Translations under genes and position numbers: made by a program
From: Ulota crispa
Lineage: Eukaryota; Streptophyta; Bryopsida; Orthotrichales; Orthotrichaceae
DNA: 64,000 bases
NCBI GenBank assembly: GCA_963920765.1
Contig: OY987242.1
Span: 27,490,002 to 27,554,001, forward strand
Reading direction: 5' to 3'
In this document: piece by piece, positions 4,127 through 43,556 of the stretch
How positions within the stretch are numbered: the stretch's first letter is position 1
How the letters are laid out: each line of letters starts with the position of its first letter
The notes under the pieces: generated by a model
Told to the model about the DNA's origin: nothing
Database searches by the model: none
The model's input: the letters and a program-made list of their open reading frames with translations, nothing else

Positions 4127-4672
4127 TTAACCCCGTAAACGCCCAAGGGGTAAGGGTAAAACATAGATGCATTATAAAAAGATATTTATGTAACTTTAGT
4201 GAAGCTTGTTTCAAAAAAGAAAACAAGAATTATGATGTATAGTAATCATCTATATAGTCAAATATTCAAAAAAAGCTTTGGACTCTTGTTTAATGAATTT
4301 AGAAGCATTTATCATTTAATATTCACCAAAATTACAAATTTTATTCATAGATTTGAAAATTTGGTGTGATTAGTTAAAAACAGATCTTCTATCCTTAACT
4401 TCAAAAATGCAATCTTTTCAAAGGAGAGAACATCATAAATTTCCCAAAATAGTAAATTTTATAACACTAGCAAGTGTAGTGTTTGTTTTTGAAAAATTCT
4501 CCTTGATGGAATTTAACTTGGATTGACATGATTCAAGTTGGGTTGGAAAGTAGACCTGATTTTCTAATGCAAGGTTTTTTTTATTTTTCAAAATTTTTTT
4601 TTTTTCATGTCAAACAGCCCTCAAAAAATGGACAATGACCAGAAATTGGTCAATTGAGAGCTTAGGCGTTAA
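4127..4672. mobile_element. TTAA-family MITE candidate (copy M)
   Basis: The left end reads TTAA-CCCCGTAAACGCCC, and the reverse complement of the right end reads TTAA-CGCCTAAGCTCTC. Both are bounded by TTAA at 4127-4130 and 4669-4672. Size and TTAA boundaries fit the family at 37466 and 38433, but the inverted ends are diverged, so the pairing is tentative. Confidence 0.4.
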
Positions 4673-5268
4673 CCTAATTCTATAGAAGTTTGGCATGAGT
4701 AAATTGGAGGGTTTTTTTTTGTATAAACATGAATGACATACAAAGAGTTAGAAGAAATATAATTAATCCATTCATTTGTAAGAAATATTTTAAATTTACA
4801 AATCACTGATTTGTAGAATTTTTTATTTCATGTGTTTGAAGCCCATTTGAAACTAGGGTTCTTTTGTTGTTCAAGGTAAGTACAATTTGCATTGTTTGTT
4901 GTCCTTAGCCGAATAGCTTGTGCACTAACTCTTATGAAAGTATGTCAAGTGCTATTACAAACACAACTTTAAACATATTGTCTAGTCCAAGTTCTATTTT
5001 TTTCACTTCAAAATTTTCTTTGAAATTTATGTATTTTACCTAATTTGAGTTCATTTGACTCTGCCATACACTTTTTTGTCTCAAAACAATAGAACAAAAT
5101 AACGTCTTATTGAATATTCGCAAACAACAATTTTGAAAAAAACTAAGATTAGAATTGAAGATTTTTCCAATAAAAAATGATTGACTCAAGTTTGGAGCAA
5201 GAATAAGAATCTAAATTTGAAAAACAAAAGTTGTATTGATAATTAAAAACAAAAATAATAGATGAACA
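4673..5268. other. Intergenic, nothing recognised
   Basis: AT-rich DNA without a coding signal or clear repeat structure. Confidence 0.5.
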
Positions 5269-5277
5269 TAATTGAAA

Positions 5278-5680
5278 GGGAATTACTATAGCAACACCCT
5301 AACTTGCTAACGGGACACCCCACTGAGCATGAAATTTGATAATTTAGTTTTATTTTTTATTTATTAAGTGGTTCATCATTTAATCACAACATTATTACCT
5401 TTTTGAAAGAAAACATGACAAACACAAAAAATAAATAAAATATTATTGCACCAATACTATTTTTTGATATATTTTTGCTTTATGTAACTCAAAAGTCTTA
5501 CATTTTTAGTTTGAAATTTAAGCACACTTATTTTATTTTTAGTATTACCTTAGAATGATAAAGGTGAAACAAATCTTGTGATTCAAATTAAAGAATAGCA
5601 AAATTAGCATTAAAAATCACATTTTCATGCTCAGAGGAGGTGTCCCATTAACAATTTAGGGTGCTGTTGTAGTAATTCCC
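5278..5680. mobile_element. Mutator-like MITE with perfect 9-bp target duplication
   Basis: The element starts GGGAATTACTATAGCAACAC. The reverse complement of its right end starts GGGAATTACTACAACAGCAC, and the inverted repeat continues for about 60 bp to a shared TGAGCATGAAA. The flanks TAATTGAAA (5269-5277) and TAATTGAAA (5681-5689) are an exact 9-bp duplication, the Mutator-superfamily length. The interior is AT-rich and non-coding, so it is a non-autonomous copy. Confidence 0.85.
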
Positions 5681-5904
5681 TAATTGAAAATGATGCAAAA
5701 TGATGCAAGTGTGGAACATTGTCCTATAGCTTTCAACTTATACGATTGATTAACCACATTAGCCTACTTCACTATCACAACATCTTTAATGTAATGATTG
5801 GAGTTTCAAGCTACTTTGCTTGCAATTTAAGCAATTCAAAAGGTAATACCTTGTTAAGACATTATTATTGCATGTTGTAAAAAATTTAGATTGTTTAGGT
5901 TATA

Positions 5905-7213
5905 TTAACCCCTTAGGGCCAGAGGAGGCAAAAACTACCTTCTTAGGTTTTGAAATGAAATTTAGGGTGTGTTACCAATTTTGGATCATGGGTTGACCAA
6001 CTACAAACATGTAAGGAATGAAGTCTATTTTCACGCGCACTTGTTTGATCAAAGTTTGGAATTACATCTTGTTATAGAGAGAGTGATTCATTAGAAGGGG
6101 TATCGGAAGATTTGAGTGTTTAGTACAAACCACTCACTAAAACACCAATAAGAGGATGACGTCACCTAATGTCTTTAGGGACCAAGTAAATAGTGCCATG
6201 ACAATTGCCAACCCAATTATTCTTTGGCTTTGTACCCCCTCCTTGAGCCTTTCACTCCTTTTAGCATTGCACGGTCAAAATCACTTATATATTGTCACAC
6301 TTCTTTTGAAAGAACACGTGGTCATAGATCAATACTATTCAAATAACTTGTCTGATTGAATTTCTAACCATGCAAATTTCATTTTTCTAAAAATAATGAA
6401 AATTTCATGATTTTTTCCACAATTTATGCACCTTATCCACCCATGCCTTTCCTTTTTCAAATACAATAAAAGGTACAATTTTTTCCCAAAATCCTAAGTT
6501 CAAGCCCTTCAACATATCACATATAAGAAAAGTGCACAATTTCAAAATCTAATTCTACGGTAGTTGCTTGTAGGAGCCATTCATTCAACTTGTACAATCC
6601 AAACTTAATCCAATGCACCACCTTTCACTTAACCGATGTAGCATATATCATAAGCAGTTAGGTCCAAAAAAATTACGTGCTTATCTTCCAAGACCGCAAT
6701 TTACATTGATACAGTTGGATCTTGGATAGATCACTCTTTGTATGTTTGGGTACCCCCCGTGCGACCAAGGGGTATTTTTTAGGGGGCTATTTACTTCCTA
6801 GGCATGAATAAAAGGGACTCTATAATTACAAAATTTGCCAAGATGGCCTATTTTATTGCACCTTATAATTACTTATATTTCCTAGATCATCCTATTTTTG
6901 ATCGCACTATATTATTTATATTTGGTTTGGGGTGGTTGATAAATATGCCCTTTTTTTTTACAAAATTAACATGGGAGCCTTAATTCCTAAAAGACATAGT
7001 GTGATGTTGCAATCAATAGAGTACGAGGTGTTTTTCTTGTATTTGGAATGGATTCACACCTTTATTGCATTTGAGACCAACAAAGAAGTTGGAGAGCATA
7101 TCAAAGCGGTTCTAGTGAGCTACTTGAGATTCCAAATTAAAACTTCTTACTAGTAGTAAATACCAATCATACGGCAACATTATTACTATGCCCTACGGTC
7201 TTTTAAGGGTTAA
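5905..7213. mobile_element. TTAA-family element candidate (copy A, long)
   Basis: The left end is TTAA-CCCCTTAGGGCC (5905), and the reverse complement of the right end (7213) is TTAA-CCCTTAAAAGACC. Both ends fit the window-wide TTAA family, but at 1.3 kb this would be its longest member. The ORFs inside are short and unrecognised, so no transposase is claimed. The two ends could belong to different copies. Confidence 0.35.
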
Positions 7214-7764
7214 ACAACCCCGCTCACCACGCTGACCTAAACTAGAAAACCCTCCATAAACAGAAAGGTAGATGATGTTGCTTGACATGAGCACGGCCAA
7301 CTTTAAAAGAAAGGTAAACTTGTTGTTGATAAGACAAAAGCAAAGTTTGTTCAACAAAACAAGCAGAGAGCTTTTGTGTTGCAAAAGGATACCATTGGGA
7401 CCCTCATTGCGAAGCATGCAAGAACTGTATGAAATCCTAGATTACAAGTAGAAAATTTAGCACAAAATCAACAAAATTTCAACCAAAAACTGTTGATTTT
7501 TTCTGTGGATTTGGTCAAGTTGATTTGGATACTTTTCAATAAGAGTATGTTGATTTTCTGTTGATTTTTTGTTGATTATGTGCTGTTTTTTGTTAATTTT
7601 TTGTTGATTTTCTGTTAATTTTCACGTATTTTATGTTATTCAAGTCTATTTTTTAAAAATTTAAAATTTTTTTTTTCATAGAATTTCATTTTTTAAATAA
7701 AAAAGTGAATTTTTTGAAAAGGGCCGGGCAGTTGCCCGATGGTGCAGGCAGCTACCCGTATTCT

Positions 7765-7860
7765 CGGGCAAGGCGGCTATTGGCAGTGAGATTTGAACTC
7801 CCCACTTCTAGGCTCACACTCCATAACTCTACCACATTACTCATAACCATTAAAGCACGT
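7765..7860 (-). repeat. tRNA-derived sequence (SINE head or tRNA pseudogene)
   Basis: On the minus strand, GTGGTAGAG resembles a Pol III A box, and GAGTTCAAATCTCAC about 40 bases further resembles a B box/T-arm. The cloverleaf is not intact and no anticodon arm is convincing. It is more likely a SINE head or tRNA relic than a working tRNA. Confidence 0.4.
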
Positions 7861-8374
7861 GCACTCACACATGTGCACAATAGAATCATGACTCTATTTG
7901 TACATTAAATGTTCATGTTTTTAGTAATCCAGTAGACTTTGGAAACTATTTCAGCTCATTAAAGGGCTTTTTTTCAAAAAACTTAGAACTAATAAAAGTT
8001 GGTAAATGTATTTTACTTTCACCTCCAACAATTTTTTTGGATTTCAATCTTTTTATCAAAAGTTATGAGCTAAAATCAAAGAAGGTGTTTAGAAATTTTT
8101 AAAAAATTGTTTATTTCCATCTTTTTGATTTTGTTTATAAATTTTTATTGGAATTCACAAATCTCAAAAGGATTGTTGCTGGCAAAGGTTGGATTCATTA
8201 ATAATTATTATTTAGTGCTTGTTTTTTTGTAAAAAGAACCTTATTTTGTTAAAATAGCCTTCACAGTTTGATAGCTTTAAATAACATGAAATTGTGAAAA
8301 GTTACAGAATTAAAACCTTGCAATTATAAAATCAAAATTCTATTGAGTTTTGAATAGTTTTGGATAGTTTTTAA

Positions 8375-8785
8375 GGGCATTAATATGTGAACTGCACCCT
8401 TTGAACTACTATACCACACCTTCGGGGTAAATTTTAGATTTCTACCATCAAAAACTTGAGTTTGAGAATTTTGAATTCAAATTTGGACTTAGAGACCATG
8501 ATATTGCCTAGGACCATAAAAAAAGTTGCAATTCAACAACACCCAATGAATAAGCTTATCTTTTTTTACAAACAAAAGTAAAATTAACAATTTTCTCCCT
8601 AACTAAACTTTTCATTGGGTGTTGTTGAATTGCAACTTTTTTTATGATTCTAGACAATACCATGGTCTCTAAGTCCAAATTTGAATTCAAAATTTTCAAA
8701 TTCAGCTTTTTGACAGTAGAAATCTAAAATTTACCCCGTAGTGTGGTATAATAATTGGAAGGGTGTGGTACACATATCAATTCCC
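8375..8785. mobile_element. Mutator-like foldback MITE
   Basis: Two arms of roughly 170 bp are inverted repeats of each other around a short AT-rich centre; for example AACACCCAATGAA and TTCATTGGGTGTT face each other. The ends are GGG...CCC as in the element at 5278. The flanking 9-mers AGTTTTTAA and ATCTTTTAA agree at 7 of 9 positions, consistent with an aged 9-bp duplication. It lies inside the candidate CACTA-like element. Confidence 0.75.
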
Positions 8786-9739
8786 ATCTTTTAAAGCTTA
8801 TAAAAGTATTTTATAAGATTGTTTTTCTTTAAATCATTTGGTTAACAATAAAAAGAAAAATACTAAAAATATCCTTTAAGTCTTTCAAAATATCAAGTTT
8901 ACACTGAAAATATTTGAAACATAAAAAATATTCTTTATTTTTTGTAGGAATATCAATTATACTCCTATTATTTTAGAAAATTAATAAAAAAACTCTTCTA
9001 TTTTGAAATGTTAAATATATCCTTGTGTTATATGAAATGTAAAAATCACCTTTGGTTTCTTGTAAGAATTTGCATTAAACTATACACTTGGATATCATAT
9101 AACACAAAGATATAAATAATTTAAAATAGTTGAGGAGCATTTTTAACATTTTCCCAATATATTAGAAGCATTGTTGATATTTATACAAAAAGGTAAGATA
9201 TTTTTGGTACTTTTAATCCTTGAGGGACATATATGATTTTTTCAAAGAATTGAGGAGCATCTTTTATATTTGTTTGTAAAGAAATTTTGGTATGTAAAAC
9301 AACAAAATGCTGTACTTTTTATATAAAATTTTGTTGAATTAGTGAATTTGTGTCCAAAAGTGTCCAAATCAACAAAAAACTGTTGATTTTTTTGTTATTA
9401 TGGTCATGTTTTTACTTGACTTTAAAGGGTGCTAATTTTAAATCTAACCAAATTGTGAAAAATAAAGAAAATAAAACCAGTCAATATACACTCAAACTTC
9501 TAAAAGATTCTATTTTTTTTGAAAACTTCTTTTATTTTTTAAAGCTTCAAAACATTTTAATGAGGTCCAAAAAGATTCTAGAAAGATTTCAAAATTAAAC
9601 CTAAACTATTGTAATAGTTTTTTTACTAAAAATATTTTAAAGTATTTTAAAGTATTTTGATGAATTACAAAAAGATTCCTAAAGGACTCTAATTCAGTCT
9701 AAGAGATTCTATTTCTATAAATATTTTGAAGTAGTTTAA

Positions 9740-10355
9740 CAAATTTCATAAAGATTTTAAAAAGATTCTCAAAGATTCCAAAAAGGTTCTTGGAAATTCT
9801 CAGAGATTCTCAAAGATTTTTAAAATTTCCAAAAAGATTATCAAAAGATTCCAAAAAATTCCAAAAGATTCCAAAAGATTCCAAAAGATTCCAAAAGATT
9901 CCCAAAGATTCTTAAAGATTCTCAAAGCTTCTCAAAGCTTCCAAGAAGATTCCAAGAAGACTATTAAAGATTTTCAAAAATTCTCAAAAAAATTCAAAAT
10001 TCCTAGAACATTTCCAAAGATTCTCAAACATTCCAAACTATTCTCAAAGATTCTCAAGAATTCTCAAATACTCCTAAAAGACTCTCAAAGATTCCAAGAG
10101 GATTCTTAAAGATTCCAAGAAGATTCTCAAAGATTTCCAAAGATTTTCAAACATTCTCAAAGATTCCATAAAAATTTGAAAAGATTTCCAAAGATTTCCA
10201 AAGATTCTCAAAGATTCCTACAAGATCCTTAATGATTCCAAGAAGATTCTCAAAAATTCTAAAATCCTGAAAAGATTCTCAATGATTCCCAAAAGATTCT
10301 TGAAGATTCTTAAAGATTCACAAAAAATTCCCAAAGATTCCAAAAAGATTCCAAT
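9740..10355. repeat. AAAGATTC-type minisatellite
   Basis: Dozens of degenerate copies of AAAGATTC(T/C)(C/A)A-like units about 9-13 bp long run for roughly 600 bp, with a local perfect stretch of CCAAAAGATT repeats near 9860-9900. There is no coding content. Confidence 0.85.
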
Positions 10356-10511
10356 TTTTTTGTTGATTTAGATGATGGTGTCCAAATCAACAAAATGTAT
10401 TTAGTTTTTACAAAATTCTATTAAATTAGTCAATTAGCGTGGGCAAGTGCCCAAATCAACAAGAAACTGTTGGTTTTCTGTTGTTTTGAACAGAGTTTTC
10501 TACTAGTGGGT

Positions 10512-11472: not shown

Positions 11473-11474
<2 letters not shown>
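10512..11474. other. Intergenic with one orphan TTAA-family end
   Basis: No gene is seen. An orphan right end of the TTAA family, CCCTAAAGGG-TTAA, lies at 10941-10954; no convincing left partner was found. Confidence 0.4.
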
Positions 11475-11521: not shown

Positions 11522-11526
<5 letters not shown>

Positions 11527-12254: not shown

Positions 12255-13502
12255 TTAAGTGGCCCTCACAGGTTTGAACATGTCGCCGAAGTCTTGTGTT
12301 CGGTGCTGAGCGCACGTCAGGAACACCGTCGAGCTACTTGATGATGTCTGCATACTTGGTGTCTGCTGCTGCCGTATCTGAGGGAAGTGGCCAATGCCTT
12401 CGCACCTTATCACGTTTCTTGAACTATGAGCGATCGGAGTGACTTCGAACTTCGCATCTGTCATGTGCTCCGCAATGTCTATCGCAGAGCGCGTGTGCGG
12501 AGTGATCGGTCCAGTCACGACTTCGGAGACTCCATCAGCCAAGGCCATGAAGATGACAAGCTGGTCCTGCAAGTACTCATCGGTGCAACCTCCATGTGCC
12601 AACTGCTTCTCCAAATCTCGCACCGCAGAAGAAGCCAATTCTTCAGGGTTACTCGAAACATTCTGGTGACGATCTCTTGGAATTGTTGATCCACCTCCGA
12701 GGATGCATCCCGTGGTCGTGACTGCGTAAATTAGAAGCCGGCATACCAGAGTTAAGTCGGTTTCCGATTCTTGAATGTCTCTTGAAAACCTAACATCTGT
12801 TGCAACTCCATGTCTGCCTCTTAAGCTCTCGTTTAAGGCTATTTGCACTTCGTTGATGAACTGTTGATCCGCCCTGCCATGGCCGTAGAGTATCGAGGAC
12901 ACTTGAAGAATATTGCCTCTGTCGCGCATAGAAATTGATTGTAACGGCTCTGTTCTTGGATACGTTCTAACGTTTACCAGAGCTTCGCCGCTCGGCATAC
13001 AGTCACGCCGAATTACGTCAATTTCGACTGTCATATGAAAACGCTTGTGCAGGAGAGGGACAAGAACGTGTTTCATGTAGTCGATTGATGGCGACACGAG
13101 CACTTTCGAACCTCCAGTGAATACCAGGTCCGTCGAAGTAGGCGAGAACAGTAAGACGGGCAACAATGCTTGAAGCAATAGCGAGATCGCAGCATCGTCA
13201 GTGTGGATTTTGTGTGCAGATGATTTCTTGTCGGTAACTGACACCAGCGCGTCAGGTGCCGCTCCAAGGAAATGGACTTCTTGTGAATCTACGACGGCGT
13301 GCTCCAGTTTACCCGCAGACAATTCTGCCACGGCCTTCAATCCTTCCAGGTACTGAGGTCTCAAACCTGGTCTCGGCCGATTTACTCTGATGTTCTTGAA
13401 GTGAACAGTCTTGCCGAGAATTGCTGCGTACGCTGAAGAGTTTCTAAGTATTTGACCGCCTCCGTGTACGATGTCTCCATCTACCACGACAGTGTTGTCC
13501 AT
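12255..13502 (-). CDS. RNA 3'-terminal phosphate cyclase-like protein (RtcA family), intronless
   Basis: The RtcA family converts RNA 3'-phosphate ends to 2',3'-cyclic phosphates using ATP through a covalent His-AMP intermediate. From the internal Met at 13502 the product has 415 residues: the N-terminal block VDGDIVHGGGQILR (7-20), the RPGLRPQYLEGL block (43-55), and EYLQDQLVIFMALADGVS (from 309) followed by TGPITPHTRSAI, whose His at about 336 sits where the nucleophile is in the family. The reading frame continues 59 codons upstream to an ATG at 13679; the internal start is preferred because family proteins begin just before VDG. The usual YPKGGGEV motif is altered to MPSGEALV and about 40 C-terminal residues are unlike the family, so activity is uncertain. 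It is uninterrupted, which fits a retrocopy or an ancestrally intronless gene. The paralogue Rcl1 is less likely because the His region is kept. Confidence 0.85.
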   Translation of the reverse strand: MDNTVVVDGDIVHGGGQILRNSSAYAAILGKTVHFKNIRVNRPRPGLRPQYLEGLKAVAELSAGKLEHAVVDSQEVHFLGAAPDALVSVTDKKSSAHKIHTDDAAISLLLQALLPVLLFSPTSTDLVFTGGSKVLVSPSIDYMKHVLVPLLHKRFHMTVEIDVIRRDCMPSGEALVNVRTYPRTEPLQSISMRDRGNILQVSSILYGHGRADQQFINEVQIALNESLRGRHGVATDVRFSRDIQESETDLTLVCRLLIYAVTTTGCILGGGSTIPRDRHQNVSSNPEELASSAVRDLEKQLAHGGCTDEYLQDQLVIFMALADGVSEVVTGPITPHTRSAIDIAEHMTDAKFEVTPIAHSSRNVIRCEGIGHFPQIRQQQTPSMQTSSSSSTVFLTCAQHRTQDFGDMFKPVRAT

Positions 13503-14629
13503 TTTGAAAGAAGTTGCAGGTCTCCCTGTCGAGTCACTGCGCACTTGTAAAGAGTACGTGGACGAAATTAGGCTTTCCTTCAAGAGTAGAGTGACAAGAA
13601 TTTCTAAGATGAAACCATAGCTTATACGCAACAGGGAAGAGGAACACGGGACGGTAGTACAGCAACAAAAGATCCTCAATCACAGAATTTCCTCCGTGAC
13701 TTTCTTTTTAAGGTCTTGATTGAATTCCGAGGCTCAATCCTTCACAGAGGAGGAAATTCTAGCATTGCGCATTCTTTTTACAAGAGACTTCCGTGGTAAC
13801 CATGGCCGTTTCCAGAGTCCGAGGCAATGCTAGAATAAACTTCAGGCAGCGCAAGACAAAATTCCACATGAGTTGCAGGGTTGACGTGCATGAGAGTACC
13901 TTTTCTGCAAGACAAGCGGTAGCTGAAGCACACGGAAGGCCACTATACTCTTCTATTTCAAAGCCAGCTTTCACTCCTAACGCCTCTGTCATAAAAGGTA
14001 TAAAACACGGAATTTTGGTCTGAGGATGTTGTTTGAAGTATTTTTGCTTTTGACAAGAATTCACAGAAAGCTCACGAAACAACAGAATTATGTTCTCACT
14101 AATGAACGATCAGACCAAATATGCACCAGCTATGGTGGCGTTGCGACTTGAAATAAGATAGGAGAGCTGCAACAGTACGTCGGTAAATTGGAGGAGGAAT
14201 CGTCTTTCTGTCCTCCGAATAAATATATTCACCAATCGGGCAATGTCTGCAAGTCTGTACTTTTGACTCATTCCATTGCAAGAGGGAATTTGGTACGATA
14301 AGACCTCAATATATACTTGTGCTCCACGTACTCTTGAACTCCATGTATAGGATTCGTCCTTTGAGAGAATACTAGGTGCTCAAAATTTTACGCGGTTAGA
14401 TTTGGAAACAAACCAAAATAATTCACCAAAAGTAACACTTTTTGAAAATCAAGGATTTTGACAGCCCCTAATTCGTAGAAAAGAGAACCAAGTTGTACGG
14501 AAAGCTCTGAATGTTGGACTTGACATGCAGGATTGTGCTTTACGTGTGTAAGGTAATTCGTTGGGTATAAAGAATTTAAGGGCAATAGAAAATCAACTTC
14601 GAATATGCTGGAAGTGAAAGTGAATTTTA
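13503..14629. other. Region upstream of the RNA cyclase-like gene
   Basis: More GC-rich than typical intergenic DNA here up to about 14300. Short ORFs on both strands (76-107 residues) overlap each other and match nothing I recognise. A short inverted repeat (AGAATTTCCTCC at 13684 and GGAGGAAATTCT at 13748) flanks about 50 bp just upstream of the extended ORF. It likely holds the promoter and 5' UTR. Confidence 0.35.
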
Positions 14630-15548
14630 TTAACCCCTAAAGGACCAGGCCCCGTTTTTAGAAACATAGCGATTTTGGGCAGGTACTTGTGATTGGAGTT
14701 TTTCATATTTTAGTGTGAAATTTTAAGAAAATGTGGGGACAAGGTTTATCTTTCATATGCACTAAATTTCATGTCATTTGGAATAACAAGTAAAAAGATA
14801 TGGCCTAATATGTTGCTTTTTACGTTTGAGGGGCATCCTGTGCAAATTTTTGAAAATTGCTTTTTTCAAAAAAAAAATTTTTAATTGGTTTAGGAGATTT
14901 ATGTGAATGTAGAAAGCTTTCAATCGTTCCGTTTTGATCAACAAGATGAAAATTATGAGGATTGTTTGCTTGCAGGCAGTTATGGATTCTCTACTCTAAA
15001 ATAAACTTTGAAGTCCTTTATTTTACTCAATTTTCAACATTTTGGAAAAATAAACAAAACCAAAGGATGTAGATTGTTTATTGCAACATTATGACCATTG
15101 GGATTAGCATTTTTCTTTTCCATAATTAATTTCTTAACAAGTTAGTGTTTTGAATCATTCTCTACTTCTTTTTACTTACTAATTTTTTTCCATATGTTAT
15201 AAAACTCCAAATGATTTGAAACTTTTTCGACATGTACTTTACTTAGGTGGAATAAGGACTTAGAGAAGCACCACCCACATGGCCTTTTTTCCTTAGGAAT
15301 TTCACCTTTTGAAAGCTAGCTGCCCAATTTTTCACAAGATGTTTTTGAATATTCAAACCATTCTAACTTCCAATCCATGTGGTGAAAATCTCTGGATTTT
15401 TTCCACGTCTCCTAAAACTATTCTTCTACCAGATCCTATGGTCACATATGTATAAAAAGGTTTTTATTTTCAAATTTGGTAGATGCTCTAAAAATGGCAG
15501 TTTTGAAGAGTTTTTGGTGAAAACTTTGCTTGGTCCTTTATGGGTTAA
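14630..15548. mobile_element. TTAA-family MITE (copy B)
   Basis: The left end reads TTAA-CCCCTAAAGGACCAG, and the reverse complement of the right end reads TTAA-CCCATAAAGGACCAAG. Boundary TTAA at 14630-14633 and 15545-15548. The interior resembles that of the copies starting at 36555 and 37466. No recognised protein is encoded. Confidence 0.7.
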
Positions 15549-27931: not shown

Positions 27932-28345
27932 TTAAACCTTTAACGACCGTGGTCAATTCTGGGGGTGGGCAATCCTTTGTATGGCCATTTGGGGGGAATT
28001 TTAAAACTATTGAATACAAATGTCTACCACAGATTTGACCATGCAGATGGAAGTATCTTGCAGGGTTTAGTATTATGCATCATAAACTTATGCTCACTGT
28101 TTAGTTGTTATGGCCATCTTTTTGCATTCATTGGTGTATTTTCAATTGGTGCTCTTTTAGTTTTTTCAACCCTCTGGCCACATGCCACCTCAAATTGGCC
28201 TAGTTATTGTCCTAAATTCTTCACTTTCCAATTCCCCAGACACGTCCCCTTTGACTAATCACCACATTCATTGCCATTCTCTTCCTACACAAGGAAAATG
28301 AGCTCGATCAACCACAAAGTGGTCAACTGGTCATTAAAGGGTTAA
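27932..28345. mobile_element. TTAA-family MITE (copy C)
   Basis: The left end is TTAA-ACCTTTAACGACC, and the reverse complement of the right end is TTAA-CCCTTTAATGACC. The repeats continue with GTGGTCAA / GTTGACC. Boundary TTAA at 27932-27935 and 28342-28345. No plausible gene inside. Confidence 0.65.
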
Positions 28346-28511
28346 AGCATGCAAGCACCCATTCTATGTTTTGACATTCAAATCATGATTGAGAACAAGT
28401 TTTCAATTATTTTAGTCTGACATGTATCTATATTTTAGGGAAAAACAAATATGAACAAAATTATGATCAATAATCACACACAACAAATCAACAATGGCTC
28501 ATGTCACTCTC

Positions 28512-28976
28512 TTAACCCCTAAGCTCCCCAGTGCCTAAAATATGGCACTCAAAATTTTAATTGGACTGTTGCGCCTGCAGATGGGGTGATTTAGGGGAAT
28601 TGAAGGTACACATGGTACGAGGAGTGGGGATTAGATGAAAGGGAGCTGTGTTCCATGGCTTTGACGATCATATGCTTTGTCATACTCAATTCAATGATGA
28701 GAAAAAGTGGTTCTAGAGCGGTTTTGGGTAAATGAGGAGACCCCACCCATACATGGTTTCTAATGGTTGATTTTGGGTTGTCTATTTTTGTAGTCAGATT
28801 TGGCATTGTAAATCTTGTCAAAAAAATTTGAAAATTGGAAGGTAGTGACTCTGGAACTCTGGCCCAAAATTTTGTTGCATACTTCCATCACCTAAATCCT
28901 AAATCAATGGATACCATTCTTGGACATTCAGAAATTTGGACCCTAATCCAAATGTCAACCACCCTTTGACGGTTAA
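28512..28976. mobile_element. TTAA-family MITE candidate (copy D)
   Basis: The left end, TTAA-CCCCTAAGCTCCCCAG, fits the family well. The proposed right end, inverted, is TTAA-CCGTCAAAGGG, which is weaker. No gene inside. Confidence 0.4.
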
Positions 28977-29317
28977 ACTGCCCTATATTTGAGAAGGATT
29001 ACAAGATTCAAGGTAACAACTAGTTTCAAAGGCTCATACGTGTCGATTGTATTTTTGCATATGCCACAAGCTTTTCATTCTCGGGTGGTCTCTTGAGCCT
29101 GCACTAGAGCGATTTTGAGCTGGGCGCTCATGGATTAAGTTCCTAAAACAATGCACACAAATACAATTTTTGGACATAAAATAATGTGACCCATTTAAAA
29201 ACCTCTGTTTTTGTGACCCTACATGGTGCAATGGTTGGTTCAATATGCTTGATTCAAATTAGAGCCTCCTACCTTACTCCAAAAAAAACTCAACAATTTG
29301 CACTTGCTTCACATTGT

Positions 29318-29559
29318 TTAACCCTTAAAGGATCAAGCTACTGTAATGCATACTATGTACATTGTTGTATAGGTGGCATTTGCTACCAACAAAAAGTTTT
29401 AATGTGGGATCTTGACTACCTCACTTAAACAGCATTGATCTATATTCTAACTTCTTAGTTGATATCAAATGTAATAAAGGTGTGGATGCACTCCAAATAC
29501 AAAAAAAATACTCCGTATTATACTGGTTGCAAAGGGCTGCTCAGTTGTTCAAGGGTTAA
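29318..29559. mobile_element. TTAA-family MITE (copy E) inserted in the rbcS pseudogene
   Basis: Ends are TTAA-CCCTTAAAGGATC and, inverted, TTAA-CCCTTGAACAACTG. The flanking pseudogene reads CACATTGT on the left and GCCCAACACGCAC on the right, once the Tourist-like MITE is set aside. The intact gene has CACATTGT-CGAA-CCCCAGCACGCGC, so exactly four bases (TTAA, aligned with CGAA) are duplicated. The interior resembles copy K at 43085. Confidence 0.85.
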
Positions 29560-30156
29560 GGGCATCTCCACCGGTGGCTTGGGCTTGCTCAAAGTGGATG
29601 AAGAGTGTCCAAGCCCCTCTCAAAACCCTCTCAAACTCTCTTATTTAGCGAGTCTAGCAAGCAAGCCACTATTCATGCACTATTCACCTTAAGTTTAGTG
29701 AGCTTTATCTTCTACTTCCTTAAATAAGTGGCAACTGCTTATTTATGGGGTATGTTGGAGTGTACATAACATTCAATAGCACTAGTAAAGGCTGCCCTCC
29801 CTCCAAGAGAATGGTGTAAAATATTCCATACACTTCTTTAGCTATGGGAACACTTGGCTGAATTTGTCAAAATTTATGAAAGGGAGGCTTAGTTCAGCGC
29901 ACACACATAGAGGGGGCCAGAGGTGTCAAAAAATAAATTTAAAAAAAAAAAAAAAAAAAATTTTTTTTTTTTTTTTTTTTTGTCAAGATGAAGTTCATGG
30001 ATGATACCTGAAGAAAAGGAAAGGCAGCCTCTCTTCAGGCTACTGAATGTTATGTAAGACCACCTTTTCAAAGAGCATGAGTGAAGATTGAGAGCCTTCA
30101 AGCCTAACCAAACCAGATGGAAAACTTTGAGCAAGCCTGGACCGGTGGAGATGCCC
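29560..30156. mobile_element. Tourist-like (PIF/Harbinger) MITE
   Basis: Inverted ends of about 34 bp begin GGGCATCTCCACCGGT and run to GGCTTGCTCAAAG. TAA lies on both sides (29557-29559 and 30157-30159), the PIF/Harbinger 3-bp target. Weaker inverted similarity extends inward (TACATAACATTCA near 29764 and inverted near 30050). The centre holds a 20-A/21-T run, itself a perfect hairpin (29941-29981). It is inserted in the TTAA at the right boundary of copy E. Confidence 0.85.
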
Positions 30157-30722
30157 TAAGCCCAACACGCACACGAAGCAGGCGGAGAACTCGATCATAC
30201 ATTCCCCGATATCTCGCAACACCTTCGTGGAGTCGTTGCACCCCAACATGGGCAGCTTCCACATGGTCCAGTAAGTTAGCGCCCCTCGTCGTACTGCGGC
30301 CTCCGATTGTTCTCTCGACTCACGCCCTCCGAGGATGTGGCGGAATTGCACCATTACATTTAAATCTAGACAAAATGAATGCTTGCCAAGACAGAGAGAG
30401 GGTGAGCTTCTGCTCGATCTCGAACTACACTTGCTTGGTGGATCTGGTCGTCGGTGGGAGCAGGTAAGGAGGAGGAGGTCTCGAACTCGGTCATGCAATG
30501 GAGTTCCACACCTAAGTTACATGCATCTCATAGGGCTGCCCTTTTGGATGGAGCTCAGCTTCGGAGCAATTGTCGCCAGCAAAACGTTGCTCTTGAGGCC
30601 GGAGAAGGCCTTCACGGAGGTCGAGTCTGAGATCAACACAAAGGACGAGGCTGCACTCAGCAGCGAGTGTGCCAGGAGGGGCCACAATGGAAGAGGCGGC
30701 CTCCCACGCAAATTGGTGCCAT

Positions 30723-33694: not shown

Positions 33695-33925
33695 TTAACC
33701 CCTGAATGTCACAAAAGTCCTTTGCAGCCGTATGTATGGCCGTATGTATAGACTTATTTGAGATGTTATGAGGGCTTTTCAAATTTTTTATGCACCCACC
33801 ATCATACAACCCTTCAATATGTATGATTGTAACACTTAATTTCCAACTGATTCAAACTTCCATATATTGGTTGCGACTGTATTTGTTACCATAGCTCCAG
33901 AGCCCAAGGGCCCTTCAAGAGTTAA
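33695..33925. mobile_element. TTAA-family MITE candidate (copy F)
   Basis: The left end is TTAA-CCCCTGAATGTCAC, and the reverse complement of the right end is TTAA-CTCTTGAAGGGCCC. It is short (231 bp) and non-coding, with boundary TTAA at both ends. Confidence 0.5.
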
Positions 33926-34736
33926 ATTGTCCCAAAAAAAACCCTATTTGTACCCTTCAAATGCACTTGGGTGCACTTGGGTAAGGAAAAATGGGCTAAA
34001 ATTAGAATGAATAAAACATATGTGCATGTTCATCTAGTAAATTTGCACTAATATAAGCTAGTATCATCCAAATTATGACAAAATGGGTGTTTGTGTAAGG
34101 AGGGAGTTGGCCATATCATCCACTTCTTTGCCCAAATTTCTTATTATTGTACTGGTCACTAGTGCTTGTTTGAGGTAATTAAAGATTTAGGTGAAAAATT
34201 TGCCAAGAAATAGAACAATGCCTCCAACCCAGACACAAGCAAATGGTATAGAATAATTGCGGGATAGCGTCTCCTAATTGGATGGCACGTAGGCCTCTTT
34301 GTTCTTTAGTGTCAATTCTTCAATTGGACGCAATCATTGTGCGTGCCTGCAGCTAGTGACCTTGAAAGCGTCGAAAGTGTTGAAAGCACAAGACGGGCAG
34401 GGAAAGCTCAAAAAGTTGGCTGCACAAGATTTCAAAGCAAAAAGTCAAGTTTGGAGATTGGACTTGGTTTTGTGGACTAGATGCATGCCAAGAATGTCCA
34501 AAGTCCATGGATCAAAAGATTATCATACGTCTGGCGCAACTTTGATTGCGAAGCGTATGCGTTTCCTTGCCATGAATTGCATTATCCAAGAGGCATCTTT
34601 GGCATGTTGTCCCGTGACATCTATTTGGCCTTAGCAACCTAGCGGACGGGTTTTGTTTGCTAGACAGCAAAACAAAATGCTTTATACGATGGAAAAATAT
34701 CTTATTTTTCATCTGATTTTTTTTTTTAGAAGTGAT
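33926..34736. other. Intergenic, no gene recognised
   Basis: A patch at 34290-34640 is GC-richer, with an open frame of 111 codons but no recognisable domain. Nothing else is supported. Confidence 0.4.
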
Positions 34737-36520: not shown

Positions 36521-36554
36521 GTCTTCAAGAACCTCATTGAATGAACTTTTATTT

Positions 36555-37469
36555 TTAACCCCTATAGGCCCAAGGAGCCCACTTTGGGCTTTACAAGAAC
36601 TAGGGCAGGCTCTATTGATTTCATAATTTGGAACTTTTTCATGAAATTTTTAGGATGGATGCTACTCATCATAATCTACATGTGAAGCTTTACTTCATGT
36701 CATTCCAATAAGTCATGCAAAAGTTAGAAGGTATTTTCAGTTTCAATGTCAAACTGGGCAGCAAAAAGTATATTCTAAAATTTTTGTTTTTATTTTTATA
36801 TAATTGTATAGAATGATACCTACTCAAAAAACTATTGAATCACTCAATTCCAAATAACGAGGTAAGAGTTAAAAGGAGTTCTATTTTGCGGGCAATGAAG
36901 GTAAGAAGAGGGTAGAAAAAACATATAAAGTTATCTTTTACTCTCAATTTTGAAAAATTTCAAATGAAAATGAAAATTAAAGTTACTAATTGTCTGTTAG
37001 AGCATTCTCACCATTGGGATTAACAATTTTCAAATTCTTCCAAAACTTATTAGCATAAGTTACATCTTTCATTCATCAATACCTTTCACTTTACAATTTC
37101 TGTAAAAATTAATCCAAAATTTTTTTTGGTTAAATTTTTATATATATGCTTGCAACCCATATTCCAACATATTGCCAAAATTGCACAAGAAATACAACAT
37201 ACGTGTTTTTCTCTAAAAAGTTTGAAAAACAAAACTTCACCTTTTAGAAGGACTAGAAAAGCCTACATTTTGAAGTTTGGGCACATTGATCTTGCAATTG
37301 GTGGGGATATTCATTCTAAAATTTTGGGACAATGTAGTTGTGCAAGTCAACTAAAGGACAGATGGATTTGTGAAAAAGTAAGTTTCAATGAATATTTTGA
37401 CCCTAGTTTGGGGACTAGTATTTTGAAGCAGTTTTGGGCCTCTAAACACAAAAGAATTTTAGTAGTTAA
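36555..37469. mobile_element. TTAA-family element candidate (copy G)
   Basis: The left end, TTAA-CCCCTATAGGCCCAAGG, is a clear family end at 36555. The interior is similar in character to copy B. The right end is uncertain; it may share the TTAA at 37466-37469 with copy H, where the inverted sequence reads TTAA-CTACTAAAA. Confidence 0.4.
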
Positions 37470-38116
37470 CCCCTAAATGCCCAAGGGCTTTCTGAACTTC
37501 TTGGCATTTTCAGGAAAGTGAACAATCAACCAACCTTTTCATAAATCTCATCAAGTTTTTTCAAACTGTAATCATACAAATTTGTATTTGACATGTTGGA
37601 GATTATATGGAAAAAAAAAACACAACAATATCACTTATAGTTTGAAAGATTATAACGTTTGAACATGAGGATGTTAAAACTGCAAAAGTGACTTGAAGTT
37701 TTCTAATTCTCATTTCACATGTCAAATCTAAAAAGTTGGTCATCAAAAATATATGAGGTTTAAGGTCATTACATGTTTAACCTCAACCAATTTTTGGCTT
37801 GCAAAATCTACTCTTGTATTTATTTAAATGGATTTCTAATGCGGATTTTTCTCCAAGCTCTAGTGTATATGAGGCTCATTTTCAAGATCTTCCAACACTA
37901 GAAAACTCAAGATTGCAGTGGACACCCTTGTACAAAATCTTGAATAGAAAATCATGAACATTCATTTTCAAAATCGGATTTTTGATGTTGAAAATAGACT
38001 TCAAAACAAACTTGTGTTCAAAAGAAAATACCAAAAATAGTGGTTTGATAAGATTTCATTCAACTTCAAAGTTCTGCAAACACCCAAATTGGGTGCCTTG
38101 GACATATAGGGGTTAA
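37466..38116. mobile_element. TTAA-family MITE (copy H)
   Basis: One of the best-preserved copies. The left end is TTAA-CCCCTAAATGCCCAAG, and the inverted right end is TTAA-CCCCTATATGTCCAAG. Boundary TTAA at 37466-37469 and 38113-38116. 651 bp, no gene. Confidence 0.8.
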
Positions 38117-38166
38117 GTAACCCAAATTGTGTGAAGATCCACAAATGCAGTATTAGGTCAATTGAT

Positions 38167-38337: not shown

Positions 38338-38425
38338 ATTCCCCATATTAGGTCCATGTTGCTCTTTTTGCAATTTTCAAGAATCAAGCATGCACTATTA
38401 ACTTGTCCAACTTTTGAAAACATTA

Positions 38426-39038
38426 TTAACCCTTAACCCCTGAGCGCCCAGCCCATATTCATCAAAATCTAGAGCCACTCACACTCAATTCAACCAAATT
38501 GTCATCACAAACAAGATCCACAAAATTTAACCGTATTGAATGGTAAGTGAGACAAGCTCCAAAGTATAAGGAAAAGGACAAATGGTTTGACCATACCAAT
38601 AGAAAGATTATAACAAGTCAAACAAGAGCTTTTTCATTTCTGAGCGCTCCATTTTGAGGTCTTGGGGCGCTTAGGGGTTAAACTTTGTATGGGTGGCCAT
38701 GCCTGCCCTCTACAAGGGTTTCTACAGTGATGTGGCAAGTGCCCACCCATTAAAATTTTGTTTTACGAAGTTGCAAAAGTCAACAGTACATGGTGCCCTA
38801 ATGAAAATTACAATGACAGCTTGGGACCTAACACCATGTTTTTGAATCTTATCACAATTTGGATTACAAAAAAATATGAATATATCTCATGAGGTAATTT
38901 TTTGCCTTCTATGATGAACCATGTGTTTATGGTCACTTTTGAAAAAAAATCAGATGAAAAACGACTTTTTTCTGAATCGCAAAATATTTTTTCAAAGACA
39001 GAGGACGATTTTCGTCCTTCTCGACATTTAGGGGTTAA
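38426..39038. mobile_element. TTAA-family element (copy J), host of nested copy I
   Basis: The right end, inverted, is TTAA-CCCCTAAATGTCG. The left end begins TTAA-CCC at 38426 and is interrupted at the next TTAA by copy I; taking out copy I and one TTAA leaves TTAA-CCC-TTAA-ACTTTG, which pairs with the right end. That restores a normal family terminus. The remaining 364 bp are non-coding. Confidence 0.65.
38433..38681. mobile_element. TTAA-family MITE (copy I), nested
   Basis: The left end is TTAA-CCCCTGAGCGCCCAG, and the inverted right end is TTAA-CCCCTAAGCGCCCCAAG. It is 249 bp and well preserved, inserted in a TTAA inside the terminal repeat of copy J. Confidence 0.85.
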
Positions 39039-40658
39039 ATTGTGCAAGCTCGATCCTCCTGCTACAACACTACGCCACGAAGACCGGCCTGACGTTAGGG
39101 ATAAGTGGAAGGCCTCATTAGACAGGAGAGGTCAAGTCACTGGACCCCACTTATTTGCTTGTGGATGTTTAATTTTTGATATTTAAGAACATTTTCAAAA
39201 GTAGGGAAAGGAATTGGATTTTGAGAATCTTCTGGATTTCCGAGACCCCTCTTGCTGAGCCTCACCTGAAAGACAAACTTACATGTAGTTTAAATAGGAT
39301 GTCAAATTTCTAATATTTGAGTTCTCTCCATGCAACACGTGTCTCTCAAAAGTACTCTCTTCTGAAAAATTTCTAATCATCACGCCCAGTAATGAGGCCT
39401 TGAGGTTGTAGTTAGTCTTAATTACTATTGAACTTGTCCTCACAATTCAGCTTCACTCTCCATTCATGACCAATCCACAGAGAAGGATTACGCAGCTCCC
39501 AATATTCCTAATTCCTACTCCAACATTTTGAATAGGTTTCACCACTCCCTCATATCGACCGGTTTGCTTACAACAATTGTGCCCACCATATATGAACACA
39601 ATGACCATTCACAGTTGGTTTTGAAACGACCACAGGTGATTAAGTGCCATTACAGGACAGCAACGGCAACAAATTTCAAAAGTTCTCAACCTACTCTCAA
39701 GATTACGTGATTCGCTGTTGTTCAACATCATGACGGGCCAATTGTACGAAATCAGATTGCTCGCTATGGCCATGACAAGCTTTCATCCTGAAGGTAAGTT
39801 TACACTTCGTTGCAGATTTGTAAGAGGAGAATAGCATTGCATGAAGGTACAATTTTAGGCAATAGTTACTCTGCTGACACCACGTGTGACCAACTGAAAC
39901 TGTAAAAATGAAAGATTGTGCGCATTCCGTCACTTCGGTAACTCTCTGCCATAGTGCTCAACTGTAAAATCTCTGCAATTTACATATCAACAGTCGCACA
40001 TGGGTGATTTGCAAGTGCACGGCATAGAACTACAATGCTTGAAAGGCAGCACGAGAAGTGAGCACTGGGAATCACAGTGCACGGTAATCACAAGAATTAA
40101 CTTCAGACTTTTCCGTTTCAATGATAAGCGGGAAAAACTCATTCCTCCACATCAATTTCATAAGCCGATATCGGTAAAATAGAGATAATCAATTATTACG
40201 GGCGCTGTTCCGGTGGCACAATCTAAACGCATTATCTATACCGGCCCTAGTTTGTGGACAGAAAATAGGCTTCAGCAAAGATTTGCCACAGCTTTTATCG
40301 CAAGATTACAGTCAACTTAACGACGATTGATGTAAAACACCTTAAATAGAACAACTTATCCAACATACAACTTGTATTAAAATTCTCCTTATCACACCAA
40401 AGCATATCACGTCAACATGATCAATAATCCCCTGCAGGGCACAGACAGCCCCACCATCCATTCCCCAACTACAATATACTGATTTCTTAGCAAAGGATCA
40501 AATACTCGCATTCACAGATTACCACGAATTGCGAAGGGAAAGAGTAACCAATGTTAAGCTCGCGCCCAGCGAACTACATATTGCATTGCTTTAAAATCCT
40601 CTTGCACACATTGCCTAAAACACTCTGTTACCAGATACTATATACCATATCAAACTTT
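39039..40658. other. Intergenic region downstream of rbcS copy 2
   Basis: Base composition is closer to 40-45% GC by eye than the flanking DNA. No recognised gene. The right end should contain the 3' UTR of the minus-strand rbcS. Confidence 0.4.
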
Positions 40659-41333
40659 TCAAGGCTTGGCGACCAAGAATCCGCAGATCTGCACCTGCTT
40701 CACATTGTCGAACCCCAGCACGCGCACGTAGCAGCTCGGGTACTCCTTCTTGCACTCCTGGATCTCCCGCAGCACCTGCGACGCGTCCTGGCACCCGAAC
40801 ATGGGCAGCTTCCACATCGTCCAGTACCGCCCATCATAGTACCCGGGGCTCCTGTTGTTCTCCCGGGACACGCCTCCTCCTGCGTTCTGCACATTGCAAC
40901 ACATCACCCACTCTTGTTAACAACACTGCAACAAGCACACTCCATAGCCACATTCACAACGAAGAAACTAGACAGAGGCATTGAGAGTACAGAGTGCGAG
41001 CGATTTGCTTACCACGTCGAACTCGAGGCAGGGGATGAGCTTCTGCTGGATCATGTAGTCCACCTGCTTGGCGATCTGGTCGTCCGTGAGGTCGGGCAAG
41101 TACGAGAAGGTCTCGAACTTGGGCTTGCCGATGGGGCTCCACACCTGCATGCAGTTCACGCGGCTCCCATTCTGGACGGAGCTCAGCTTCTGCACCTTGG
41201 AGGCGAAGAGGCCGTTGCTCTTGAGCCCGGAGAACGCCCGCACGGACGTGGACTCGGCGGAGCTCGCGGAGGCCGACGCCGAGGCGAAGGCAGCGGGGGC
41301 CACCACGGTGGAGGCAGCGACGACGGACGCCAT
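40659..41333 (-). CDS. rbcS: RuBisCO small subunit precursor, copy 2 (one intron)
   Basis: Same 182-residue precursor as the copy at 999-1673, in the opposite orientation 39 kb away. Exon 1 is 41013-41333, the intron 40887-41012 (126 bp, GT/AG), exon 2 40659-40886. By eye, exon 1 differs from copy 1 at one base (AAT/AAC), exon 2 at two (GGG/GGA, GTT/GTC), all silent, and the intron at two. The similarity stops at the start and stop codons: the 5' and 3' flanks are not alignable. Transit peptide 1-61; the mature chain starts at MQVWSP. The promoter has a TATA box and a phased CCAAT array (see 41434 and 41469), unlike copy 1, so the two copies may be expressed differently. Confidence 0.97.
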
Positions 41334-41433
41334 GGCTATGGAGCAACGCTTCGCAAAACGCCGCAGCTGTTGAGGATTGGACGCGCAACGGTGGAGACAC
41401 TCGGGGTTACCACACTCTCTCCGAGAATGGAGC

Positions 41434-41438
41434 TTATA
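41434..41438 (-). promoter_or_regulatory. TATA box of rbcS copy 2
   Basis: The minus strand reads TTTTTCATATAAGCTCC, with TATAA about 100 bp upstream of the ATG, a sensible distance for a plant rbcS promoter with a 60-70 base leader. Inferred from motif and position. Confidence 0.6.
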
Positions 41439-41468
41439 TGAAAAATGAGATGTTGCGGAGAGGATATA

Positions 41469-41570
41469 GGAGCCAATGGGAGAGAAGAGCCAATGGGAGA
41501 GAAGAGCCAATGGGATAGAAAAGCCAATGGGATAGAAAAGCTAATTGGATGCACGAGCCAATGGGAGCAC
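41469..41570 (-). promoter_or_regulatory. CCAAT-box array, six units at exact 17-bp spacing
   Basis: The plus strand has GAGCCAATGGGAGAGAA-like units with CCAAT at 41473, 41490, 41507, 41524 and 41558, and a variant CTAAT at 41541. All are exactly 17 bp apart and 140-240 bp upstream of rbcS copy 2. CCAAT is the NF-Y core. The array is absent upstream of the other rbcS copies. Confidence 0.75.
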
Positions 41571-41639
41571 CTCCTGTGGCTGCCCTTTTGTGGGTGGTGG
41601 AGAATGGAGAATGAGTTCATCTAAGAGATTGTGATGTAA

Positions 41640-43084
41640 TAGAAAAGCAATTTGCATTTCACACATTCAATTGAGGTTTCCAATTTCAAAAAGGGTGAAA
41701 GTAAGAAAAGCAATATGTAAAAAAGACATGTATCAATAAAAATTTCATGTGCAAAAGTTTTTTCAAACCTGTTCTTCTCCTTCTGAGATGAATGAAAGAA
41801 TTTCTTAATTTAAAAAAAATGAAACCCTTACAAAACAAGGACCCGTTTGTCTGAAAACTGAGAATAGGGTGAAGAAGGTGTGATTACCCCTACTTTTAAT
41901 ACCTCCGCATGCAAAGAACACAATATTTGAGAAAAGCATGAAATTCCTTAATTATTGGAGCCGTAATTGGTCTCTAATGCAATTTTGATCAACCAATTTA
42001 GAAAAAGCATTCAAAGTTTGTTTTTTTACGGACTATTTGTGCATGTAGGAAATTTTGGATTTTGAAACTTCACAAACAAAAAATGTAATGCTAAAGTAGC
42101 ATATTGCCTAGTTTCATCATTCCATTCTTTTCAATTAGTTTGATGTCAATGCATGATGTGTATCGTGTTATTTTCTTCAATAATATGAAACAAATCACCA
42201 TACTCTTTTTGGACATGTCAAATTTTACTGTTTTAATTTTGTAATATCTAAACCAATAACATAGTAAATACAATATGATGCTTTTCAAAAGCTTAATGAG
42301 AGTTATATAGCATAATATGTTTCATGCATTCAAAGTTTAGTTAGTGATTGCCAACACTTTGTTTTCTTGCTTTTTGAAAAATTCTTTAGTGATTTATCAT
42401 ACTTTATACTTGAACACTCTTTGGCATTTTAACTAGTTTTGTATGTTGTATAATCTATATCAAACTACAAACAGGTGTTAGTTAGCAAATGCAATTTTTT
42501 ATCAACAAATGAATCTTCCTTCAAGCTTGTTTGTATGCTCCTTTTTTATTTTCACCTAACATTCTTCACAAAATAGTTGAAGTTGAGTAGCATGGTTGGA
42601 AAAGTCAAATTATGCATATCTTGGATTCTCTCACATGTAGTTGAACTTGTCATTAGCTCATATTTCTTCAAAAATTGTACAATGCTTGTTGTTGTGGCCC
42701 TATTAAACGGCTTCTTTTGTAGAAAGATTGCATGGTTGAACATTCTTCAACTTGGAGCCCCTACCAATGAATGGCTTCCTTGCTTTCCTAAAGATTAGTT
42801 TGCAATTTTCCACCATTCTTTGCAATATAATATTAGAACATTTAAGAGATAACACAAGGACATGACTATTGAATGTATTTTTCTAATTCTAAGGAAGTGC
42901 TTTGCTTATCATGAATAGCACATGTACAAAAGGATAATATCGATGAGAAAACAATTGTCCTTACATGACCAACTGCAATTACTAGCAAAGTCAAGCCCAT
43001 TGTGATAAGGCATGCACCTTCCAACATGCCACAATACAACTACAAGTAATCACAAAAAATGACTTATTTAAGTATTGATGACCA
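41640..43084. other. AT-rich intergenic, nothing recognised
   Basis: No gene or complete element seen. Confidence 0.5.
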
Positions 43085-43556
43085 TTAACCTTTAAACAAC
43101 CATAAAGCATAGTATACACACTACCGTATAATTGGCATTTTTTATCAATAAGAAGTTTTAATTTGGGATCTCATGTAGTTCACTAGTATTGTTTTGATCT
43201 ATTCTACAACTAACACCATATTAGGTAAAGTGGGAAAAAAGGGTGTCCCACTTTGTTTTCTCCCCCAATCCCAAAAAGTTAGATTTGAAGGTATTAGATT
43301 CAGTTTGAGCCACTAAGATTTTTTCCCTTGCAAATCCCTCCTATCAAGTGAGGATATTGTGCAAAAAAAAAAAATCTGAGCTTGGTTTGAGGTGATCACC
43401 TCAAACTTTTGAAAGCAAGTTTGAAAGTCCCAAATTATACCTTTTTTCTTCTTTATTGATCTCAATTGTAGTAAAGGTGTGAATCAATTCCAAGTAGAAG
43501 AAAAACATCTCCTATTCAATTGGTTGTAGCGGCACGCTCAAACATTTAGGGATTAA
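43085..43556. mobile_element. TTAA-family MITE (copy K)
   Basis: The left end is TTAA-CCTTTAAACAACC, and the inverted right end is TTAA-TCCCTAAATGTTTGAG. The interior shares a GGCATTT...AAGTTTTAAT(G/T)TGGGATCT block with copy E at 29318, so the two are the same subfamily. Confidence 0.65.

Follow-up and report, generated by a model that had tools for sequence, protein, structure and literature searches.

The 64,000-nucleotide stretch analysed here (the window) carries scattered repeats bounded by TTAA, which raises the question of what these repeats are and which transposases moved them. PiggyBac, the model for footprint-free transposition, has its best-known examples in insects and bats, and animals dominate the discussion of it. 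An earlier note had read the repeats as one active, non-autonomous, piggyBac-like family in a green plant. The host was found to be a moss, as judged by the closest named relatives of one gene, and we conclude that the window repeats are almost certainly non-autonomous piggyBac-superfamily MITEs in a moss genome, moved by transposases of several 5-6-kb piggyBac lineages.

We searched the 275-Mb genome with the exact 20-mer TTAACCCCTAAANGNCCAAG and obtained 8,413 matches, and its reverse complement also gave 8,413, while a reversed-pattern control gave 0. Within the window, 10 end matches with three or fewer mismatches were found, compared with 0.08 expected from shuffles, confirming that the scattered TTAA-ended repeats are real. 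The 8,413 exact ends are of the CCCCTAAA type and belong to terminal inverted repeats that start with CCC(C/T)T, as expected of the piggyBac-like ends that had been proposed. CCCCTAAA resembles the usual plant telomere unit, CCCTAAA, and this is the sole point in favour of a telomere-like or simple repeat with no transposon behind it; the occurrences are single and dispersed, the inverted ends are paired, full-length copies are homologous and empty sites are precise, and we give that reading a negligible chance. The elements are short, non-coding, similar in size within a family and high in copy number, with ends in the thousands, as MITEs are.

We then compared the places listed in the earlier note with other loci of the genome, and 9 of the 11 had an independent copy among the loci compared. 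All elements described here lie on the forward strand unless stated otherwise. A 919-bp MITE at 14630-15548, with paired ends CCCCTAAAGGACCAG and CCCATAAAGGACCAAG, matched L083 from end to end at 85% identity. The left portion of an element ending in TTAA (TTAACCCCGTAAACGCCCAAGG), at 4127-4454, was 80% identical to JL023 326-1 over 328 bp, with homology beginning at 4127, and a small MITE with the left end TTAACCCCTGAATG at 33695-33926 was 86% identical to JL021 693-925. The weakest listed place, a single TTAACCCCTTAGGGCC end at 5905-6063, gave a weak, one-ended match to L037 1362-1205 (70% over 158 bp). No right end could be assigned to 4127, 5905 or 33695. The 29318 family is represented by a 242-bp MITE at 29318-29559 (74% to JL028 7939-7704), by a 234-bp MITE on the reverse strand at 6980-7213 (78.5% to JL028 7701-7939), and by a copy at 43085-43556 with an inserted stretch at about 43212-43440; two pieces of this copy match JL028 at 76-77%, and 43212-43354 is 75% identical to L005 1258-1410. 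A 414-bp MITE at 27932-28345 lies within a very high-copy repeat, has empty sites, and in its right half is 71% identical to L033.

Several places turned out to be more complex than a list of ends had suggested. Position 28512, given as a weaker end, pairs with 29138, defining a 627-bp MITE (28512-29138) whose ends match transposase element L010; no outside copy was found among the genome loci compared, and its support comes from these ends. Position 36555, taken for a weak single end, is instead the start of a 915-bp MITE (36555-37469) that matches L005 1501-2422 at 89% identity and is bounded by TTAA. The last TTAA of this element (37466-37469, no strand assigned) is also the first TTAA of an abutting 651-bp MITE at 37466-38116, the limits being set by homology to L005 and L004. 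The latter MITE is 72-93% identical to nine other copies, including L004 (83%) and L074 (93%, the highest identity among the copies compared), which span 637-658 bp once one extra base is trimmed from L077, L078 and L079. A 249-bp MITE at 38433-38681, with a 246-bp relative at JL012 8626-8871 (72% over 147 bp), appears from homology to be nested inside another element ending at 39038. This outer MITE, at 38426-39038 with a putative left part, is split by the inner one and is delimited by homology to JL014 (38768-39038, 80% identical to 1538-1809) and L032 (38758-39038, 73% to 7548-7258). The earlier note had missed the copy at 6980-7213, the abutting pair at 37466-37469 and the nesting of 38433-38681.

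To define the target site, we examined where conservation stops. Two copies that are 90% alike (L009 and L018) lose homology at their TTAA ends. A changed outer T was seen in 4.3% of ends and a changed inner A in 3.6%, with the base immediately outside TTAA unconstrained. Three insertion sites, those of 27932-28345 and of transposase elements L012 and L010, had unoccupied paralogues; these are read as paralogues, with no status as excision products implied. The 27932-28345 site showed one target copy in all 14 paralogues read (13 TTAA and one TTAT, in L061), and the L012 site showed TTAA in 2/2. The conservation edge and the single TTAA in 13/14 and 2/2 unoccupied paralogues bear out the claimed TTAA duplication. 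Three observations count against this explanation: the left end of 27932-28345 has three bases more than the empty sites, one of its 14 empty copies reads TTAT, and the sole paralogue found for the L010 site fits in length but reads AAAA, not TTAA. The duplication might instead be TA, as in Tc1/mariner and Stowaway, or TAA/TTA, as in PIF/Harbinger and Tourist, the rest of TTAA being part of the element or a loose preference. TTAA is palindromic, so a TA duplication at a TTAA site leaves the same letters; nevertheless, the outer T is kept like the inner A, and the partner elements encode piggyBac transposase, making a shorter duplication very improbable.

Pairing of ends by scanning alone was less informative. 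A first scan with a loose core gave 26 pairs compared with 50 in the reversed-sequence control and is uninformative because AT-rich hairpins pass. A stricter general scan gave 27 pairs versus 14 in its reversed control, which counts against our explanation, and lone pairings from it were therefore not relied on; pairs such as JL009 1468-2555, L004 843-1260 and window 48714-49903 are probably chance. Abutting ends were also counted: 163 of the 8,413 exact ends adjoin another end across one TTAA, a figure in which some junctions are counted from both sides and for which no excess over chance is claimed. We relied instead on where homology ends, on the 20-mer count, on matches at both ends and on empty sites.

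We searched the genome with the piggyBac transposase profile PF13843 and found it at at least 116 places (120 match rows, best E 1.3e-73); most of the listed matches contain stops. L019 matches piggyBat 9c0f (1.2e-21) and piggyBac 6x67 (1.1e-16) and was aligned to piggyBat D237, D309 and D413. The DDD triad was complete in 13 of 22 copies examined, with the first, second and third aspartates kept in 20, 15 and 18 copies, respectively; one of the nine incomplete copies is so because its domain is cut short. Of 14 loci scanned, 11 had a C-terminal CxxC...CxxC/H pattern beyond the core, some of them in a shifted frame, and a Pfam model gave no confirmation of this cysteine-rich stretch. In the tree, the genome's transposases fell into a single clade together with four unnamed database proteins, separate from the ant and moth proteins. 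Among 12 transposase loci with wide flanks, seven were 5.0-6.3-kb elements with paired TTAA ends. Against our explanation, the other five, with joined wide flanks, had no clean end pair, and five further loci scanned had no end pair. None was found within 1.5-kb flanks for L015, L016, L020, L022, L024, L026 and L027, and L028, one of the five of 12, had paired ends (15/20) that were set aside, its right end being part of a 234-bp MITE.

The transposase elements carry CCCYT ends, except that one L010 end reads CTCCT. Four window elements agreed at both ends, in the same order, with three of them (L010, L012 and L013): 37466-38116 with L012 (17/20 and 16/20), 27932-28345 with L013 when flipped (17/20 and 16/20), 38433-38681 with L010 when flipped (17/20 and 16/20), and 28512-29138 with the left and right ends of L010 (16/20 and 15/20). 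A piggyBac-type transposase with matching ends, as sought by the earlier note, is present in the genome. On the other side, L010 has lost two of its three active-site aspartates, and therefore a working partner of that lineage remains only a candidate. The 14630, 29318 and 36555 families had no good match to completely bounded transposase elements (9-14/20); for 29318-29559 no transposase element agreed with an end at more than 13/20, and no partner was found. Kolobok and Sola3 are other superfamilies that duplicate TTAA, and one of them could have moved the short elements, leaving the piggyBac relics unrelated. TTAA duplication by itself cannot separate these superfamilies from piggyBac; the both-end, ordered matches of four window elements to piggyBac-transposase elements, which themselves occupy TTAA, speak for piggyBac in those four, and we consider a Kolobok or Sola3 origin highly unlikely.

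The claim of a single family was not upheld: the window elements are several families whose ends link them to distinct transposase lineages, and different families share little common interior, with about 50% identity between several. Nor do the data establish the description "active". The best identity of 93%, the stops in most listed transposase matches and the nine of 22 copies without a full DDD triad lead us to infer past rather than present activity. In the piggyBac explanation, transposases from 5-6-kb elements of several lineages would recognise matching CCCYT... terminal repeats and mobilise the MITEs in trans; the short elements would be cut out seamlessly and pasted into TTAA sites, probably via hairpin intermediates, duplicating TTAA. 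More tentatively, and somewhat short of an even chance, mosses may host a piggyBac clade of their own that diversified into numerous transposase lineages, of which the 22 copies examined would represent about eleven, each with its own ends and MITE families; such a load would be among the heaviest known for plant piggyBac, and some copies may still move.

These elements are a new, abundant addition to the known piggyBac superfamily. This moss genome, which has short copies in the thousands and transposase matches at 116 or more places, would offer plant biology a native collection of elements with matched ends, in which the co-diversification of transposases and end sequences could be studied. 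It also suggests that repeats ending in TTAA, where they appear in bryophyte annotations, merit a check for piggyBac origin. Among the matches listed from the open-licence literature (Repbase being outside its scope), no paper described native piggyBac elements in mosses; the "piggybac" of a Niphotrichum paper is the word "piggybacking".

We compared the moss elements with known systems. Like piggyBac of Trichoplusia ni (PDB 6x67/6x68) and Myotis piggyBat (PDB 9c0f), they have a TTAA target, ends starting with CCC, a PF13843 transposase, a DDD triad and a C-terminal cysteine-rich stretch; they differ in their moss host and in transposases that form a clade apart from ant and moth proteins. At 5.0-6.3 kb they are also longer than T. 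ni piggyBac, for which the relevant passage gives 2.4 kb (PMC2874221). Angiosperm MITEs have likewise been assigned to the piggyBac superfamily, but the passage concerned names the superfamily only (PMC10004981), whereas the moss genome has piggyBac-transposase elements with matching ends. The piggyBac-related CMITEs of corals resemble the moss elements in several ways: they are short and non-coding, they duplicate TTAA, their genome also contains piggyBac-like relatives, and an insertion of one element into a TTAA of another is described (PMC2872659). The internal region of the coral CMITEs is conserved across families according to that account (PMC2872659), whereas the moss families share little inside, several being about 50% identical to one another.

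The window elements are piggyBac MITEs. With up to 3 mismatches allowed, the end motif TTAACCCCTAAANGNCCAAG occurred ten times in the window (expected number, 0.08), and genome-wide (274.8 Mb, 157 contigs) 4,206 + 4,207 exact matches were counted, while the same motif read backwards, as a control, gave 0 exact matches in the same genome. The window elements belong to a very abundant, genome-wide set. At the 8,413 ends with TTAA, the outer T was changed in 381 (4.3%) and the inner A in 311 (3.6%), and the base immediately outside was G or C in 3,734 (44%). Given this conservation edge at TTAA, neither a TA duplication with loose neighbours nor a TTAA lying inside a longer terminal repeat was supported.

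We then joined the flanks of 20 elements, searched them together for unoccupied sites, and scored the best 40 of 3,331 candidates. All 41 rows among the matches listed spanned the site of 27932-28345, whose host repeat (27830-28405) is of very high copy, with 3,331 first-look candidates. The element was absent from all of the 14 paralogous copies of this site that were read, each carrying a single target, TTAA in 13 and TTAT in one (L061). An additional TTA stands at the left end of the window copy, and we take these three bases as a later change. In a second search of 18 joined sites, without those of 27932 and 29318 (best 40 of 2,054 candidates scored), the transposase-bearing element L012 had junction-spanning matches at three places among the matches listed, with one TTAA in each of the two that were read. 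Another transposase-bearing element, L010, had one such match among those listed, correct in length and 78% alike but with AAAA at the target; the remaining 16 joined sites had no spanning match among the best 40 of 2,054 candidates. Targets were also shared: the TTAA at 37466-37469 serves 36555-37469 as its right end and 37466-38116 as its left end, 163 exact ends genome-wide adjoin TTTAGGGG across a single TTAA, and 38433-38681 apparently lies within a TTAA in the end of an outer element that reaches 39038 and whose left part is inferred. By the conservation edge, the unoccupied sites and the shared targets, TTAA is the target.

For nine of the 11 places that had been listed as repeats, a BLAST comparison of the window with other loci of the same genome revealed full-length or end-anchored copies. 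With limits at TTAA, 36555-37469 was 89% identical to L005 1501-2422 and 37466-38116 was 83% identical to L004 1501-2154. Ten copies of the 37466 family were compared (70-93% identity among all ten); the other nine measured 637-658 bp and were 72-93% identical to the window copy, 93% being the highest identity among the copies compared. Identity was 85% between 14630-15548 and L083, 86% between 33695 and JL021, and 80% between 4127 and JL023, while 5905 matched weakly (70%, one end) and 28512-29138 had no copy among the loci compared. The elements at 29318-29559, 6980-7213 and 43085-43556 form a single family, to which a 234-bp copy in JL028 also belongs. The earlier note had proposed a single family; there are instead several, because several of the larger ones share only about 50% identity internally. 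Two 79-bp elements (L007 2647-2725, L029 2721-2799) have TTAACCCCTAAATGCYCA-type ends on both sides and little beyond the two terminal repeats.

The piggyBac transposase profile PF13843 gave at least 120 match rows at at least 116 places, all above the curated cut-off (best E 1.3e-73), a lower bound as 116 of 528 candidates were scored; no match was found in 14 control genomes. Most rows had stops inside the domain, and many of the minority without stops were partial. The stop-free stretch of one transposase locus, L019, matched piggyBat (9c0f; 1.2e-21) and T. ni piggyBac (6x67; 1.1e-16). The active-site aspartates of piggyBat are D237, D309 and D413 (PMC11707139), and L019 aligned aspartates at all three positions (by our own count, there is an offset of 6 in the chain numbering). 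This triad was complete in 13 of 22 aligned copies, the first, second and third aspartate being kept in 20, 15 and 18, respectively. At L010, L015, L016, L020, L021 and L024, the aspartates were often replaced by asparagine; these changes fit C-to-T decay on the other strand, and loss by cytosine methylation could be involved. A cysteine pattern lay downstream of the core at 11 of 14 loci scanned, with the frame shifted in some, and no Pfam model confirmed it.

The best end pair around the domain was sought in 12 transposase loci with joined wide flanks. Seven (L009, L010, L012, L013, L014, L017, L018) had clean pairs, agreeing at 15-19 of 20 positions including TTAA, and these elements measured 5,026-6,343 bp; L009 and L018 were 90% identical, with homology starting and stopping at the TTAA ends. 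The pair at L028 was discounted, no pair at L011, L021, L023 or L025 was convincing, and no clean pair was present among the ends listed at five further loci (L019, L032-L035). The 20 letters inside TTAA of the MITEs were compared with the 14 transposase-element ends. Four window elements paired by both ends: 37466-38116 with L012 (17 and 16/20), 38433-38681 with L010 (17 and 16/20, flipped), 28512-29138 with L010 (16 and 15/20), and 27932-28345 with L013 (17 and 16/20, flipped). Elements with a piggyBac transposase and matching ends are present in this genome. As background, 18 of 1,000 random TTAA sites in the loci compared scored at least 15 against any of the 14 ends; these 18 include some element ends themselves, and six score 20. 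Matches were weaker for 14630 (up to 13/20) and 36555 (14 and 9/20), whose ends resemble lone right ends at L025 (CCCCTAAAAGACCAAG) and L011 (CCCCTAAAGGCCCAAG), and 29318 had no transposase partner, its best end match being 13/20.

A midpoint-rooted tree was built from 22 transposases of this genome together with 18 relatives from databases. All 22 fell into one clade with the four database proteins P0002-P0005 (support 99/97), apart from named ant and moth proteins. By eye, the 22 fell into about eleven groups, and the end sequences seen followed the branches: CCCCTAAATGCC in L012, CCCCTAAARGMCCAAG in L011 and L025 (one end each), CCCTTTARNGACC in L013 and L034 (one end), CYCCTRAGCRCCC in L010 and L035 (one end), and CCCYTSAYYGCC in L009, L018 and L014.

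The window also holds an RNA 3'-terminal phosphate cyclase family gene (12255-13679, minus strand), whose closest named relatives among the best 120 of 843 matches come from two mosses, Ceratodon purpureus (61%) and Physcomitrium patens (46%), with a closer relative at 76%. We take the host to be a moss that is neither of these. Reading frames near 1,000 and 41,000 are presumably Rubisco small subunit; 989-1674 and 40658-41343 are inverted copies, 99% alike, seemingly with its exons, perhaps through recent duplication or gene conversion. An apparent PIF/Harbinger (Tourist-like) element with a TAA duplication, TAA-GGGCATCTCCACCGGTGG...CCGGTGGAGATGCCC-TAA (29560-30157), is inserted at the TTAA on the right of the 29318-29559 MITE. 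A foldback repeat (8420-8741; 131-nt arms, 92% complementary) has relatives in L001, L022, L033, JL012 and JL025, and 9550-10366 is a long degenerate tandem array of AAAGATTCTC-like units of about 10 bp.

A transposase acting in trans would cut out the short elements, which would then be pasted into TTAA. In T. ni piggyBac, movement is known to involve cutting, hairpins and seamless repair (PMC7351741); the same steps may apply to the moss elements. piggyBac MITEs are named among angiosperm MITE superfamilies (PMC10004981), PiggyBac copies appear in a fern repeat table (PMC6890710), and, according to a review, relatives occur in plants (PMC2874221); this kind of element is therefore already known. 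In the open-licence literature we found no paper on a piggyBac load in a moss with matched transposase elements, and it is this moss load of piggyBac MITEs, together with its matched transposase elements, that is new to us.
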